A DNA stretch of 28,364 bases from a virus: positions 1-28,364 of the IMG/VR virus record IMGVR_UViG_3300042691_035697. One strand, written 5' to 3'. The notes under the pieces are model-generated. The model made no database searches and had not been told where the DNA came from. It saw only the letters and a program-made list of their open reading frames with translations. The position numbers and the translations under genes were made by a program. Shown here in pieces: positions 339-6,991 of the stretch. Numbering within the stretch: the first letter of the stretch is position 1; each line of letters begins with the position of its first letter.

Positions 339-360
339 CTCGGGCCGTCTCGGGCCGTCT
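331..360. repeat. Tandem 10-bp repeat, three copies
   Basis: CTGGCCGTCT, CGGGCCGTCT and CGGGCCGTCT follow each other without a gap. The first copy overlaps the last transposase-site-like repeat and the third runs into the stop codon of the lipoprotein gene. It may be simple slippage or an extension of the end-binding region. Confidence 0.6.
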
Positions 361-619
361 AGAGGCACAGGAAGAGATGATCGGCATAGGCAGCCGACGG
401 CGGCTGGAGCGTCGAGGCGAACTCGGCACGCTTGTCTGCCGTGCCGCAGATGCGGCTGGCTTCGGCCTCGATCTGAGGCGTCAGGCCAGGGATATTGACG
501 ACCGTCGGCTGGCGGATCGTGACGCTGTCGCCGTTGAATTCGGCCACGATGCCGTCGGTCGGCGTGCAAGCGACCATGGCCAGGCAGGCAAGGCCGAGCA
601 GCACTATTCCAGTCTTCAT
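359..619 (-). CDS. Small lipoprotein, likely lysogenic-conversion gene
   Basis: This is an 86-residue protein with a typical lipoprotein signal: Lys2, a hydrophobic stretch at about residues 4-16, then M-V-A-C with Cys18 as the likely lipidated residue. The mature part is about 69 residues, contains two more cysteines and ends HLFLCL. I recall similar short lipoproteins in Rhodobacterales genomes and prophages, but their function is unknown. A GGAGGAGG ribosome site lies a few bases before the ATG. The gene points left, is separate from the early operon and sits between the phage end and the repressor, where prophage-expressed cargo is common. It is probably exported and anchored in the cell envelope. 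A role in the lysogen, such as surface change or superinfection exclusion, is only inference. Confidence 0.75.
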   Translation of the reverse strand: MKTGIVLLGLACLAMVACTPTDGIVAEFNGDSVTIRQPTVVNIPGLTPQIEAEASRICGTADKRAEFASTLQPPSAAYADHLFLCL

Positions 620-687: not shown

Positions 688-1362
688 TCACTTCGTCCAG
701 TTGTGGCCGGACCAGACGACCTCTCCGATCATCGTCAGGCGGTTCATGTCGCCGTCCTTGCGGATCTCCCATTCGTGGTCGGGGTTGTCGGAGCGGATCA
801 GGAGCGTGCTGTCGTCCAGATGCTGCAGGCGCTTGATCCTGGCCTGGCGGTCGAGGTCGACGAAGGCATAGACGCGGTGGTTGCGGATGCGCGTGCGGGC
901 GCGGTCGATCAGGGCCACGTCACCGTCGCGCAGGCCCGGGGACATGCTGTCGCCGCGGACGCGGAGAAGGCAGGCATCGGCGGGCCGGACGTTCATCTTC
1001 CTGAGCCAAGCGCGCTGAAAAGCCAGCTGCTCGATCACCTCGACGCCGTCATTCTCGGCGCCGGGACCGGCCGATACCTCGGCTGCGTAGAGCGGGACGG
1101 AGGCGTAGTCCTGACCCTGAACATGAATGACGACTTCAGGAGGCTTCCGCCGTGTTTTCGGTTGGCCGAAACTGAAGTCGAGCCCCAGAGCATCTGCCAA
1201 AGCCTGGAGTTTCTGGACCGAAGGCCATGCCCCCCGCCTGATGCCTTGAAAGGCAGAGTTGTCCGCGCGACCGAAGGCTTTCACGCTCACCTCAGCTTGA
1301 GACAACCCCAGCTCCTTCCGGCGGGTCTCCAAGGTCTCATAGATGCTCTCAAGAGATAACAT
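688..1362 (-). CDS. Phage repressor, XRE HTH plus S24 (LexA/CI-type) peptidase
   Basis: The 224-residue protein has an N-terminal lambda-repressor-like HTH (about residues 5-65, with LSQAEVSVKAFG as the first helices) and a C-terminal S24 peptidase domain. Visible catalytic parts are Ser139 in RGDSMSPG and Lys177 in RIKRL; a likely self-cleavage bond is Ala98-Gly99 in VSAGPG. The Ser-Lys spacing of 38 is close to that of LexA. It is therefore expected to keep the lysogen silent and to be inactivated through RecA after DNA damage. Mu's own c repressor is not of this type, so this switch is lambda-like. It is transcribed leftward, away from the early genes. The start at 1362 was chosen because a promoter fits directly in front of it; an in-frame ATG at 1380 would add six residues. 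No Shine-Dalgarno is visible for either. Confidence 0.9.
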   Translation of the reverse strand: MLSLESIYETLETRRKELGLSQAEVSVKAFGRADNSAFQGIRRGAWPSVQKLQALADALGLDFSFGQPKTRRKPPEVVIHVQGQDYASVPLYAAEVSAGPGAENDGVEVIEQLAFQRAWLRKMNVRPADACLLRVRGDSMSPGLRDGDVALIDRARTRIRNHRVYAFVDLDRQARIKRLQHLDDSTLLIRSDNPDHEWEIRKDGDMNRLTMIGEVVWSGHNWTK

Positions 1363-1396
1363 GGTGCAAAAATAACCCATGCAAGCCGAAACACAA
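1362..1396 (-). promoter_or_regulatory. Candidate leftward repressor promoter, leaderless transcript
   Basis: On the - strand TTGTGT (1396-1391) and TATTTT (1374-1369) are 16 bp apart. Transcription would start about seven bases past the -10, which is the A of the repressor ATG at 1362. This would give a leaderless message and explains the lack of a ribosome site. It is a prediction from sequence only. Confidence 0.4.
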
Positions 1397-1420: not shown

Positions 1421-1458
1421 ATGCATTTTCGCATTGACAGCGTGATGCAGAAATGCAT
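1421..1458. promoter_or_regulatory. Paired 14-bp operators in the repressor/early intergenic region
   Basis: ATGCAGAAATGCAT on the + strand (1445-1458) and ATGCGAAAATGCAT on the - strand (1434-1421) match at 12 of 14 positions and face each other across 10 bp. Each is itself an inverted repeat of ATGCA around four A-rich bases (one mismatch in the left copy). The right copy covers the spacer and start of the -10 of the rightward promoter; the left copy touches its -35. They are the natural binding sites for the repressor, the Ner-like protein, or both. In Mu the operator region also serves as the transpositional enhancer that the MuA N-terminus binds; the same double use here is inference. 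Confidence 0.65.
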
Positions 1459-1467: not shown

Positions 1468-1719
1468 ATGGACACGCAACACATCATCAAGCTCGTCGAC
1501 CTGCTCTCTGCGCACCTCAACAGGGGCGACAAGACGCTGGCCAAACGGGCCGGAGTTCACACGCGGATCGTTCTGCGCCTTCGCGAAGGTAAAGGCTGCA
1601 CGGTCGGGTCGTTCACCAAGATGCTGGGGTGGCTCGACGACAACTGGCCGGAAGACCTTGCATGGCCGGACGATATTCCGCGGCCGTCCCGCCGACCAAG
1701 AAAGGCAAGGGCGGCATGA
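1468..1719 (+). CDS. Ner-like small HTH DNA-binding protein
   Basis: An 83-residue basic protein holds the first position of the early operon, where Mu has ner, and faces the repressor gene. Residues about 20-50 (KTLAKRAGVHTRIVLRLREG) read as a compact helix-turn-helix of the lambda-repressor class. The tail at 60-73 is WPEDLAWPDDIPRP, followed by a basic end. The next gene has the same tail. An in-frame ATG at 1453 would add five residues but lies within the operator and upstream of the predicted transcript start, so 1468 is preferred. By analogy with Ner or Cro it should dampen repressor and early transcription after induction. DNA binding is likely; the exact role is inferred from position. 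Confidence 0.7.
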   Translation: MDTQHIIKLVDLLSAHLNRGDKTLAKRAGVHTRIVLRLREGKGCTVGSFTKMLGWLDDNWPEDLAWPDDIPRPSRRPRKARAA

Positions 1720-2096
1720 TCGGCGTTTTCCCGCGATCACTTCGACGCACGATGGCTCTCTGGCTCTGCCCAGAACTTGCCTTTGACAACATGGCTGCCG
1801 TCCGGAGCGACAGCGTTCTGACGGTGGGCGGCCACAAGCGGCACATGCTGACGCTCGCTGCCAGTTTGGGCGCGCACGAGAACCTGACGCATTGGGCGAT
1901 CTCGATGCGTTTCTGCAGAAAAGGCGACTTCTTCGACGGTCTGCTTCGCGGTGGCGATTGCCGGACTGAGACTTACGAGCGCGTGATGTTGTTCTTTGCG
2001 GGCAACTGGCCCGCCGATCTGCAATGGCCGACCGATGTGCCGCGGCCGGCGCCAGACACCACCCGAACTTCAACCAAGGAGGCGAATGATGGCTGA
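1716..2096 (+). CDS. Second HTH-like protein, paralogue of the gene before it
   Basis: This 126-residue protein starts in an ATGA overlap with the previous stop. Its C-terminal half aligns with the preceding Ner-like protein: a HTH-like stretch at about 57-92 (WAISMRFCRKGDFFDGLLRG) and then WPADLQWPTDVPRP at 98-111, against WPEDLAWPDDIPRP in the neighbour. The N-terminal 45 residues have no counterpart there. The pair looks like an old duplication in which one copy gained an N-terminal extension, perhaps to bind other sites or to make mixed dimers. Other in-frame ATGs (such as residue 13) could be the true start. Function beyond probable DNA binding is unknown. Confidence 0.65.
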   Translation: MIGVFPRSLRRTMALWLCPELAFDNMAAVRSDSVLTVGGHKRHMLTLAASLGAHENLTHWAISMRFCRKGDFFDGLLRGGDCRTETYERVMLFFAGNWPADLQWPTDVPRPAPDTTRTSTKEANDG

Positions 2097-3208: not shown

Positions 3209-4049
3209 TCCGATCACGACCATCACCGAGTTGGCGGTTGCCGACATCATCTGCCGCGACCGGCTGCGCCCTGTGTCGGAGGCGGGGGTCGCGGCGCTGA
3301 TCGCGTCGATCGGCGAGCTGGGCGTGATCAAGGACGCGGTGCATGTGCGGCGCAAGAAGGATGGCACGTTCCATCTGATGGCGGGAGCGCATCGCCTGGA
3401 GGCTGCGCGGCGGCTGGGCATGGCGACGATGCCGGTGAAGGCCTGGACCTGCACCGACGACTGGGCGCGGCTGGTCGAGATCGACGACAACCTGGCCGGG
3501 GCCGAGCTGACGGCGCTGGACACTGCGCTGTTCCTCGCGCGCCGGAAGGAGGTCTACGAGCGGCTGCATCCGGAGACCCTGCGAGGCGTGGCCGGTGCGA
3601 GGGCGCGCTGGTCGGATGCAAGCGAACTCGGTTCGTTTGCATCGACGACGGCAGAGAAGCTTGGCATCACCGAGCGGCAGGTCCAGAAGATCGTCGCCGC
3701 CGGAGAGAGGCTGCAGCCGCCCGATGTGCAGGCGCTGCGCCGGGCGCCGCGCCCGGTCACGCTTAAGGACCTGACGGTGATCGCCGGGATCGAGAGCGCG
3801 CCGGAGCGGTATCATGTGGTCGGGGAGCTGGGCGGCGGGCAGGCCAGGTCTGCCGCCGAGGCGCGGCGGTCCTGGGCGGGCCGGCAGGGTGGCGCAATCG
3901 CGCATAAAGACCCGGTTGAAGAGGACTTCAAGGTGCTGCGGACCGCGTGGTTGCGCGCGTCCAAGGCCGCCCGGCGGCGGTTCATCGCGGCCGAGATCGA
4001 GGGGGTCGAAGACCTGCTTGCAGAGGTCCGCGAGGCATCATCCGAATGA
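3201..4049 (+). CDS. ParB-like N-terminal domain protein
   Basis: The 282-residue product starts at GTG 3201. Residues about 10-110 form a ParB/Srx-like domain with the signature GAHRLEAARRLG (62-73), preceded by a short strand and followed by EIDDNL, like the ParB box motifs. A helix-turn-helix-like segment with TAEKLGITERQVQKIV lies near 149-165. Proteins of this kind occur in front of the transposase in alphaproteobacterial Mu-like phages; chromosomal ParB proteins use the fold for CTP-dependent DNA clamping. The stop overlaps the transposase ATG (ATGA), so the two are co-translated. It is more likely a DNA-binding helper for replication or transposition, or a regulator, than a partition protein, since no ParA is visible in the window. 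Confidence 0.8.
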   Translation: MADPITTITELAVADIICRDRLRPVSEAGVAALIASIGELGVIKDAVHVRRKKDGTFHLMAGAHRLEAARRLGMATMPVKAWTCTDDWARLVEIDDNLAGAELTALDTALFLARRKEVYERLHPETLRGVAGARARWSDASELGSFASTTAEKLGITERQVQKIVAAGERLQPPDVQALRRAPRPVTLKDLTVIAGIESAPERYHVVGELGGGQARSAAEARRSWAGRQGGAIAHKDPVEEDFKVLRTAWLRASKAARRRFIAAEIEGVEDLLAEVREASSE

Positions 4050-6181
4050 CAGGGCCAGCGCAGGAATGGTGGACCGCCGCCGAGATCGCCGATGCGCGGC
4101 TGCCCGATCTTCCGGGCACCAAGCGCGGGGTGAACCTTGTGTCGGAGCGGCTGGGCTGGCCGACGCTGGCCGGCAAGGCGCGGCGGCGCGCCGGCAAGGG
4201 CGGCGGATGGGAGTTTCACTGGACGCTGTTCCCGTCGCGCGCGCAGGCGCTGCTTCTGGTGCAGGCGCGGCCTGCGGCCGCCCCGGTTGCGGCACCCGCG
4301 CCCGAGCCGATGGAGCGCGATGCGCTGTGGGCCTGGTACGAGGCGCTGCCGGCGGCGGTGAAGGCGGTGGCGGCGGCGCGGCTGGCGACGGTGCAGAAGG
4401 CAGAGGCCATCCGGGACGGCGGGGCGACGATGTATCTGGCGGTCGTCGAGGCTGGCCGGATCGACGGGGTATCGCCGCGGACGATCTGGAACTGGCTGTC
4501 GGCGATCGACGGGGTCAGGATCGACGACCGTCTGCCCGCGCTCGCCCCGCGCCACAGGGCGGCCGTGCGCCGGACGCGCCGGGCCGAGATCGATCCCCGG
4601 TTCGGCGATCTGATCAAGGCGGACTATCTGCGCCCCGAGGAGCCGTCGCTGACCGCCGTCTATGACCGGTGCGTGCGGATCGCCCGGGCCGAGGGCCTGC
4701 CGGTCGTGCCCGTGCACACGGTCAGGCGCTGGATCGACCGGACGGTGACCAGGACCGCGCTGGTGCTGGGGCGCAAGGGGATGGATGCGCTGAAGCGCAT
4801 GCGGCCCACGCAGGTGCGCGACAAGACGGCGCTGCATGCGATGGAGGCGGTGAACGGCGACTTTCACCGGTTCGACGTCTTCGTACGGTTTCCAGCCGGG
4901 CCCGGCGGCCAGAAGGAGGAAATCGCGCGGCCGCAGATGGTGGCATTCCAAGACATCTTCTCGGGGCGGCTCCTCAACTGGCGGGTTGACCGGACGGCGA
5001 ACAGCCAGGCTGTCCAGCTCTGCATCGGCGACATGATCGAGCAGTGGGGAATTCCGACCCACGTGCTTCTGGACAACGGCCGTGAGTTTGCCGCGAAGCT
5101 CATCACCGGCGGAGTGCCCACGCGATTCCGCTTCAAGGTCCGCGAGAGCGACATGTCGGGGCTACTGACCTCGCTTGGCTGCGAGATCCACTGGGCCCAA
5201 CCTTACAGCGGGCAGTCCAAGCCGATCGAGCGGGCCTTCCGCGATCTGTGCGACCGGGTCGCCCGGCATCCGGCCTTTGCCGGCGCCTATACCGGCAACC
5301 GCCCGGATGCGAAGCCCGAGAATTACGGATCGACCGCCATCGCGCTCGAGGATTTCCTGACCGTGCTGCGCGAGGAGCTGGCGCATCACAATGCGCGGCC
5401 CGACCGGCGGTCGGAGGTGGCTTATGGCCGGTCCTTTGCCGCGGTGTTCGACGAAAGCTATGCAACTGCGCCGATCCGCAAGGCGACGGCGGCGCAGCGC
5501 CGGCTGTGGCTGATGGGTGCGGAGGGCCTGCGGACCCATGCGCGCACCGGCCAGGTCATGTTCATGGGCAACCGGTACCACGCGGACTGGATGATCGAGA
5601 TCGCGGGGCAGCGGATCGTGGCCCGGTTTGACCGTGGCGCGCTTTGGGACGGGTTGCACATCTACAGCATGGCGGACGCCTATCTGGGGTTCGCGCCCTG
5701 TTCCGTGAAGGCCGGCTTCTTCGACGTCGACGATGCGCGGGCGCACAAGCGCAGCCTGAAGGAATGGCAGGCCGCGCGGCGGGCGGAACTGGCCGCGCAT
5801 CGCCGGCTGACCGCCGAGGATGTGGCCGATGCGCTGGGGCGGGTGCCGGGGATCGCGCCTGCGGCGCCGGCGGCAACGGTGATCAGGCCGCTCTTCGACG
5901 CGCCGCGGGTGCCCGCGGCGGCACCGATGCGCCCCGACGAGGAAGCGGCGCGGGCCGCCGTGGTGGCCGATCTGGCCAGTGCCCGGGCGGCACGGGCCCC
6001 GGCCAGCGATGCCGGCCGCGAGAACTATGCCCGCGCCCTCGACCTCGAGCGCAAGCTCGCGGCCGGGGAGGCGGTGACCAAGGACCAGCGCATCTGGCTG
6101 GAAGGGTATCGGACCACGCCCGAATACCGGACCTGGGCTGCGTTGGTGGCCGACTACGGGGAGGCGATCCTCGCCGGATGA
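4046..6181 (+). CDS. A: MuA-type DDE transposase
   Basis: At 711 residues it is close to MuA (663). The N-terminal about 75 residues (WWTAAEIADARLPDLPGTKR onwards) match the MuA enhancer-binding winged helix. Helical end-binding domains follow. The RNase H-like core has the expected triad: Asp272 in VNGDF, Asp343 in LLDNGREF and Glu395 in KPIERAF, near MuA Asp269, Asp336 and Glu392. The stretch THVLLDNGR and AGAYTGNRPDAKPENYG are strongly MuA-like. A beta-barrel and a basic C-terminal region end the protein; in MuA the latter contacts MuB and ClpX. It cuts and joins the phage ends for integration and replicative transposition, acting as a tetramer on sites such as those at 209-338. The ATG is in an ATGA overlap with the ParB-like gene. 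Confidence 0.97.
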   Translation: MTGPAQEWWTAAEIADARLPDLPGTKRGVNLVSERLGWPTLAGKARRRAGKGGGWEFHWTLFPSRAQALLLVQARPAAAPVAAPAPEPMERDALWAWYEALPAAVKAVAAARLATVQKAEAIRDGGATMYLAVVEAGRIDGVSPRTIWNWLSAIDGVRIDDRLPALAPRHRAAVRRTRRAEIDPRFGDLIKADYLRPEEPSLTAVYDRCVRIARAEGLPVVPVHTVRRWIDRTVTRTALVLGRKGMDALKRMRPTQVRDKTALHAMEAVNGDFHRFDVFVRFPAGPGGQKEEIARPQMVAFQDIFSGRLLNWRVDRTANSQAVQLCIGDMIEQWGIPTHVLLDNGREFAAKLITGGVPTRFRFKVRESDMSGLLTSLGCEIHWAQPYSGQSKPIERAFRDLCDRVARHPAFAGAYTGNRPDAKPENYGSTAIALEDFLTVLREELAHHNARPDRRSEVAYGRSFAAVFDESYATAPIRKATAAQRRLWLMGAEGLRTHARTGQVMFMGNRYHADWMIEIAGQRIVARFDRGALWDGLHIYSMADAYLGFAPCSVKAGFFDVDDARAHKRSLKEWQAARRAELAAHRRLTAEDVADALGRVPGIAPAAPAATVIRPLFDAPRVPAAAPMRPDEEAARAAVVADLASARAARAPASDAGRENYARALDLERKLAAGEAVTKDQRIWLEGYRTTPEYRTWAALVADYGEAILAG

Positions 6182-6229: not shown

Positions 6230-6991
6230 ATGACAGAACAACTCTACAGCACGGTGGCGCCGCTCAGGAACGTGGCGGCTATGAGCGCGCTGATCGACCG
6301 GGTGAAGAACCGGTCCAACAATCTGCCCGGGATGGGGACATTCTACGGCCCGTCGGGGTGGGGCAAGACGATGGCCGCGATATATGGCACGAACAAGCAT
6401 CAGGGGATACTGGTGCAGGTCAAGTCGGTCTGGACGCGCAAGACGCTGTGCGAGGCGGTCCTGGCCGAGATGGGCGTGCCGCCGGCACCGACGGTCAGCC
6501 GGATGCTCGACCAGATCAGCCAGCATCTGGCCGTGACGGATGCGCCGCTGCTGATCGACGAGGCTGATTTCCTCGTCCAGCGGAGCATGATCGAGATCGT
6601 CCGCGATATCTATGAGGGGTCGGGCGCCCCGGTCGTGCTGATCGGCGAGGAGCTTCTGCCGCAGAAGCTGCGGTCATGGGAGCGCGTGCACGGGCGCATT
6701 CTGGACTGGGTGGCCGCGCAGCCGGCCGATCTCAGCGATGTGCGGGAACTTGCGAAAATCTACGCCCGCGACGTTGCAGTTTCGGTCGAATTGCAGGAGC
6801 GCATTCTTGCCACGGCATTCGGATCGATCCGGCGCATCTGCGTCAATCTCGACCGGATCAGGGAATTCGCCAAGATCAAGGGGCTGCATTCCGTCGGCCC
6901 GACCGAATGGGGCAATCAGCCATTGTTCACGGGCACCGCGCCGGAAGTGCGGAAATTCGGCGAGCCGATCATCGCGCGGAGGACGGCCTGA
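6230..6991 (+). CDS. B: MuB-type target-DNA activator ATPase
   Basis: The 253-residue AAA-type ATPase has Walker A GPSGWGKT (40-47) and Walker B LLIDEADF (107-114). It lies directly after the transposase, as B does in Mu. MuB (312 residues) polymerises on DNA, picks target sites, stimulates MuA and gives target immunity. The homologue lacks roughly the N-terminal 50-60 residues where MuB carries a helix-turn-helix, so DNA binding must rest on the AAA part. It is preceded by a 48-base leader with GGAGA as ribosome site, the widest gap in the early block. Its stop overlaps the ATG of the next gene. Confidence 0.93.
   Translation: MTEQLYSTVAPLRNVAAMSALIDRVKNRSNNLPGMGTFYGPSGWGKTMAAIYGTNKHQGILVQVKSVWTRKTLCEAVLAEMGVPPAPTVSRMLDQISQHLAVTDAPLLIDEADFLVQRSMIEIVRDIYEGSGAPVVLIGEELLPQKLRSWERVHGRILDWVAAQPADLSDVRELAKIYARDVAVSVELQERILATAFGSIRRICVNLDRIREFAKIKGLHSVGPTEWGNQPLFTGTAPEVRKFGEPIIARRTA

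Follow-up and report, generated by a model that had tools for sequence, protein, structure and literature searches.

A tandem pair of PHROG 7669 proteins of different HTH classes at the Cro position of a Mu-like phage

To our knowledge, no function has been assigned to PHROG 7669, a protein family whose members share an HTH-like domain and a C-terminal Trp-Pro tail and mostly occur singly. Two members, here named P1 and P2, lie side by side in the stretch of DNA analysed here, a 28,364-base virus record that ends within a gene (the window); they have the family domain and tail but belong to different classes, and the second carries an additional N-terminal module. Among well-described regulators, Mu Ner (Mup02, NP_050606.1) is a negative regulator of early transcription, a small early protein encoded divergently from the repressor gene and just upstream of the transposition genes. 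P1 and P2 occupy a Ner-like position, except that several small genes and a ParB-like gene precede MuA, and by analogy P1 may have a similar role; however, Ner is the only such gene in Mu, it has no WPxxxxWPxxIPRP tail, and no sequence relation is detectable. Lambda Cro (NP_040629.1) is similarly encoded opposite cI, and palindromic operators occupy the intervening DNA, but it also has no detectable sequence relation to P1 and P2, and lambda has no second paralogous gene. The nearest parallel is Thiobacimonas phage vB_ThpS-P1 (KT381864.1; PMC5488378; locus L006 of our sample, whose loci bear L numbers), which also has two tail-bearing genes with the second of class THW, whereas its first gene belongs to class STVSY, the operators there being CGGTA-N4-TACCG, and the N-terminal extension of its second gene is a different one. 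This first Cro-position gene (L006:2690-2944, plus strand) is unannotated in KT381864.1, in which only the second is annotated (ALF02086.1). Prophage trans-acting antirepressors (PMC3121763) are likewise phage-encoded proteins acting on the immunity of other prophages, but those are antirepressors, whereas the action in trans proposed here for P2 would go through operator DNA. A loose literature search, in which short terms matched unrelated words, found no report on tandem Cro gene pairs, which is not proof of absence.

The gene pair and its phage setting

P1 (1468..1719, plus strand; 83 aa; ATG at 1468 and TGA at 1717-1719) is a Cro-position HTH-like protein of class GVH ending in ARAA, and P2 (1716..2096, plus strand; 126 aa; ATG at 1716 and TGA at 2094-2096) is a second family member, of class THW, with about 40 additional N-terminal residues absent from P1. 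The two reading frames overlap by 4 nt (ATGA), so that the co-translation claimed in a previous sequence-only reading is plausible as translational coupling. The nearly identical 14-residue tails described there are also present, at 1645..1686 in P1 (WPEDLAWPDDIPRP) and 2007..2048 in P2 (WPADLQWPTDVPRP), both on the plus strand, with 10 of 14 positions identical and the common pattern WPxDLxWPxD[IV]PRP. The supposed relatedness of the two proteins was borne out by BLASTP (E=3e-12, 30% identity across a 71-residue alignment that takes in HTH and tail), by recovery of P2 when P1 was used as query against the whole record (7e-9), and by independent matches of the PHROG 7669 profile to P1 (3.9e-22, residues 4-81) and P2 (1.4e-25, residues 41-122), each including HTH and tail; no Pfam or NCBIfam family matched either protein. 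Because both the BLASTP alignment and the separate profile matches extend over HTH and tail, the likeness is, on these sequence comparisons, far above chance and points to homology over the whole domain, beyond the tail alone.

A CI-like repressor gene with HTH and S24 peptidase domains (688..1380, minus strand; start codon at 1380 or 1362) is divergent from P1 and matches Pfam PF00717 (3.6e-20) and PHROG 4, transcriptional repressor (6e-40). The rightward operon comprises P1, P2, small genes, a ParB-like gene, MuA (4046-6181), and a MuB-like gene (6230-6991), followed by terminase, portal, head, and tail genes. The phage is Mu-like and near Rhodobacter phage RC1, Rhodovulum phage RS1, and vB_ThpS-P1, of which RC1 has been grouped with vB_ThpS-P1 (PMC5488378). 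The label "Ner-like" given to the pair in the sequence-only reading is apt for its place in the genome, where it faces away from an S24 repressor gene and precedes the genes for ParB-like, MuA, and MuB proteins, but not as a statement of homology, the probability being below 1% in hhalign profile comparisons with both Mu Ner (0.4%) and lambda Cro (0.5%). Homology of the family to Mu Ner, lambda Cro, or CI repressors was rejected as no profile relation was found. On the other side of the repressor gene, 3' of it, lies a lipoprotein-like gene of 86 aa (MKTGIVLLGLACLAMVACTPTDG...; 359-619, minus strand).

Position, tail, and predicted fold of the family

Relatives collected by searches of viral and genome contigs represent about 150 loci. 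Of 127 non-redundant loci, 111 have a CI/S24-type repressor gene beside the first family gene and divergent from it; no repressor was recognised in the other 16, and a same-strand repressor was found in none of the 127. This divergent position holds in Mu-like phages and equally in phages of other kinds, which have CII or primase genes downstream. Considering this position opposite a CI/S24-type repressor, PHROG 7669 is probably the Cro/Ner-equivalent of many alphaproteobacterial phages, and a likely role can now be proposed for a family without a known one.

The Trp-Pro tail turned out to be a signature of this large family, single-copy in most phages, and not a peculiarity of the pair as had been assumed. 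W60, P61, W66, and P67 are invariant across 106 aligned members, with R72 and P73 almost so, and the tail pattern matched 147 of the 18,610 ORFs of the sampled loci, every one of them a PHROG 7669 member. A generic or convergent motif, whose occurrence in unrelated proteins had been named in the sequence-only reading as evidence against it, is thereby ruled out. Since the tail is invariant in the family and all matches fall within it, P1 and P2 share the tail by common descent; it is a family trait that did not evolve for the pair.

An AlphaFold2 model of P2, built with an alignment of 84 sequences from the window and related loci only, has helices at residues 38-55, 59-67, 72-77, and 84-97 and a pLDDT of about 90 from residue 41 through the tail, which forms an ordered coil past the last helix (91 for residues 101-110). 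In this model, the tail would be an ordered C-terminal strap of the domain rather than a loose motif. The N-terminal module of P2 was modelled as a helix with low confidence. Modelling of P1 without alignment gave three helices, also with low confidence (pLDDT 65), such that the HTH-like part described earlier recurs as a helical HTH-like fold in both predicted models, less securely in P1. No PDB entry matched the P2 model significantly in Foldseek; the most sensible hits were XRE-type HipB and C.Esp1396I (E of about 5), and Cro was absent from the matches. HipB was also the top match by profile comparison, weakly (E 0.38), while among viral models the two leading Foldseek matches, of 87 aa (E 1.8e-5) and 82 aa (E 6e-3), were unnamed or uncharacterised. 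The HTH assignment of the family is thus a model-based one, drawn from helix pattern and gene position.

HTH classes and operator-like palindromes

Four class profiles (GVH, THW, STVSY, and HWRV) assigned all members correctly in leave-one-out analysis (63/63). They place P1 in GVH (70.4 bits vs at most 32.6 for the others, a margin of 38 bits) and P2 in THW (90.3 bits vs at most 36.8, a margin of 53 bits). The nearest relatives of both are lone Cro-position genes of other phages, that of P1 in L144 (46% identity) and that of P2 in L094 (63% identity).

The interval 1421-1458, pointed out previously as the region to be assayed by gel shift, does contain a pair of operator-like palindromes, which are candidate sites judging by their sequence. 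O1 (1421..1434, ATGCATTTTCGCAT; ATGCA-TTTT-CGCAT, one mismatch) abuts a -35-like hexamer, TTGACA, that can be read between the palindromes (1434..1439, plus strand), and O2 (1445..1458, ATGCAGAAATGCAT; ATGCA-GAAA-TGCAT, perfect) ends 9 nt before the P1 start codon. The motif has four matches in the window against 0.75 expected, and these two are the only adjacent ones. In locus L151, the half-sites are those of O2 and the gap to the start codon is likewise 9 nt, and TTGACA-like hexamers occur at the equivalent place in relatives; a sigma-70 consensus scan found no full promoter.

Across Mu-like loci, the palindromes differ according to the HTH class to which the first gene belongs. At least two copies of the GVH-class motif, ATGnA-N4-TnCAT, are present in 13 of 16 GVH loci (2.9 in shuffled sequences), the THW-class motif, TAGC-N8-GCTA, is found in 25 of 25 THW loci (shuffled, 2.1), and the STVSY-class motif, CGGTA-N4-TACCG, in 14 of 21 STVSY loci (shuffled, 0.02), whereas an AAGAT...ATCTT-like repeat assigned to HWRV occurs in two copies in just one of four loci; as the motifs were defined on the same sequences in which they were later counted, these counts are descriptive, and the informative part is the scarcity of cross-hits between classes, which were few. 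The CI protein would be expected to read the same sites, and the palindromes may even be read by CI alone, so the co-variation fits binding by PHROG 7669 proteins without proving it. HTH classes paired with distinct operator sequences nevertheless constitute a readable code, whose DNA specificity is open to experiments exchanging half-sites.

P1 is very probably the Cro-equivalent of this phage, in the place of its lysis-lysogeny switch. It would be an HTH repressor made early, which we infer to bind the two ATGCA-N4-TGCAT operators between its own gene and the CI-like gene and in this way to set the divergent promoters. Its ARAA C-terminus (terminal Ala-Ala at 1711-1716) may add a further property. 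P1 has the Ala-Ala feature of ClpXP substrates, that is, a C-terminal AA after a flexible linker, whereas P2 does not end in AA. A terminal AA is found in 68 of 122 family members against 5% of control ORFs. Part of this excess is due to the Shine-Dalgarno sequence of the next gene being read as KEAA or RRAA, but the ending is not a mere by-product of a Shine-Dalgarno sequence and ATGA overlap, as the excess persists in every stratum: 56% against 12% of controls where both are present, 60% against 5% where there is overlap alone, and 47% (7/15) against 3-6% without overlap. The ssrA-type ClpXP degron has a terminal Ala-Ala as its main element (PMC7652416), and CtrA is stabilised in alphaproteobacteria by changing or removing its C-terminal alanines (PMC4433202). 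Given the excess and these precedents, fast turnover of this Cro through a degron-like ending is a reasonable inference by analogy.

Origin and possible role of the second gene

That P1 and P2 arose by duplication, as had been suggested, is not what the comparisons indicate: with 30% identity, the two are less alike than either is to a lone gene of another phage (46% for P1 and 63% for P2), and they belong to GVH and THW, respectively. Copies duplicated in tandem in situ should be mutually closest, which neither the identities nor the class profiles bear out. In a tree of the HTH part only, P1 and P2 fall into different well-supported groups, but the AU test on this 59-column alignment did not reject their sisterhood (p 0.27), such that the tree by itself is not decisive on their origin; for other pairs, sisterhood was rejected in L006 (p 0.0099), and in L133 the sister tree scored higher. 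Further tandem pairs were found in L006, L017, L133, and L141, and together with the window all five are of mixed class, which could also come from second genes drawn at random. L010, L040, and L139 have second genes with a far-diverged domain and the same tail (hhalign probability 96.7). On balance, P2 was probably recruited rather than duplicated from P1.

The manner of recruitment may be reflected in the parts of P2. Its N-terminal module (MIGVFPRSLRRTMALWLCPEL; 1716..1779, plus strand) is common to unrelated second-slot proteins of other phages: modules of this type start many otherwise different ones (L094, L021, L095, L058, L108, L137, and others) and also occur on the Cro-like second genes of L017, L141, and L133 and the distant one of L139. 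P2 looks like the N-terminus of an L094-type second gene joined to the domain of an L094-type first gene. In L017 and L141, moreover, a 42-nt stretch of tail DNA is 98-100% identical between the two genes and the HTH DNA further upstream is unlike, which looks like exchange or gene conversion at the tail as far as can be read from the sequences. The tail DNAs of P1 and P2 are 74% identical, and any exchange there must therefore be old. P2 would thus have entered the operon by recombination, the conserved tail DNA being the place of exchange in related phages, and would now be translated by coupling to P1 as a THW-class DNA-reading part with a separate N-terminal module.

No THW-type site (TAGCY-N6-RGCTA, at most one mismatch) was found in the 28.4-kb window, although one could sit in the missing part of the genome beyond this record, and the complete genome of vB_ThpS-P1, whose second gene is also of class THW, has two such sites against seven in the control, i.e., no excess. 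Because no P2-class operator was found in the available part of the genome, P2 would most likely act in trans; its target could be phages or prophages whose immunity is of class THW, or else a partner protein. Taken as a whole, we lean towards P1 being the phage's own Cro and P2 a member of the Cro family that was recruited, has a foreign specificity, and is probably trans-acting. Action on THW-class phages in particular is a tentative proposal from sequence, which we favour over a relic of an immunity swap or a heterodimer partner. Mixed-class pairs raise the question of whether a foreign-class Cro is kept to act on competitors. It is more speculative, and perhaps rather doubtful, that some Mu-like phages keep a foreign-class Cro binding the operators of competitors, so that one phage would disturb another's switch at the level of DNA, with the tail DNA allowing HTH modules to be swapped like cartridges.

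Alternatively, a THW immunity might have been replaced by a GVH cassette (CI, operators, and cro) through a crossover near the tail, leaving P2 behind as the old, functionless cro. The differing classes in all five pairs, the tail DNA as recombination point in L017 and L141, and the lack of P2-class operators in the window or of their excess in vB_ThpS-P1 agree with such a scar, but we consider it unlikely: P2 is intact, and its 90.3 bits lie within the 73-113 range of single-copy THW members, so it has not decayed; its extra N-terminal module is one that turns up repeatedly at the second gene position; and the second genes of L006 and L133 are also intact by score (101 and 108 bits).

A duplication within the lineage, yielding a Cro pair that forms homo- and heterodimers through the tail and acts as a graded switch on the same operators, is improbable. 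Although the shared domain and tail, the overlap in the operon, and the sisterhood tolerated by the AU test are compatible with it, and the tail they share might offer a joint dimer surface, each protein is closer to a lone gene elsewhere than to the other, their class signatures differ by wide margins, and the operators present are solely of P1's class. That the family consists of antirepressors or RNA-polymerase-binding proteins with the tail as partner-binding element, as its strict conservation and the absence of any known DNA-binding protein among significant structural matches might suggest, is likewise improbable in view of the Cro position opposite CI, the XRE-like helix pattern, the operator sequence co-varying with the class of the family protein, and the tail predicted to be ordered together with the domain.

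As opposed to these readings, a recruited P2 acting in trans remains our preferred one. Some additional observations concern the second gene slot. The short N-terminal module of P2 (1716-1779), of the pattern LRRxxALxLCPEL, is fused to many different proteins at or near this slot in Mu-like phages (L017, L021, L058, L094, L095, L108, L116, L137, L141, and L154); a strict scan of viral contigs with this pattern returned four stretches only, and the match in L156 is apparently due to chance. The near-identical tail DNA mentioned above lies at L017:1881-1955 and 2213-2287 and at L141:3915-3989 and 4274-4348. In addition, the slot after the Cro-position gene is often taken by a very small protein whose single hydrophobic segment is of membrane type (...WxGDLxGAxxLF...), for example in L035, L121, and L138.
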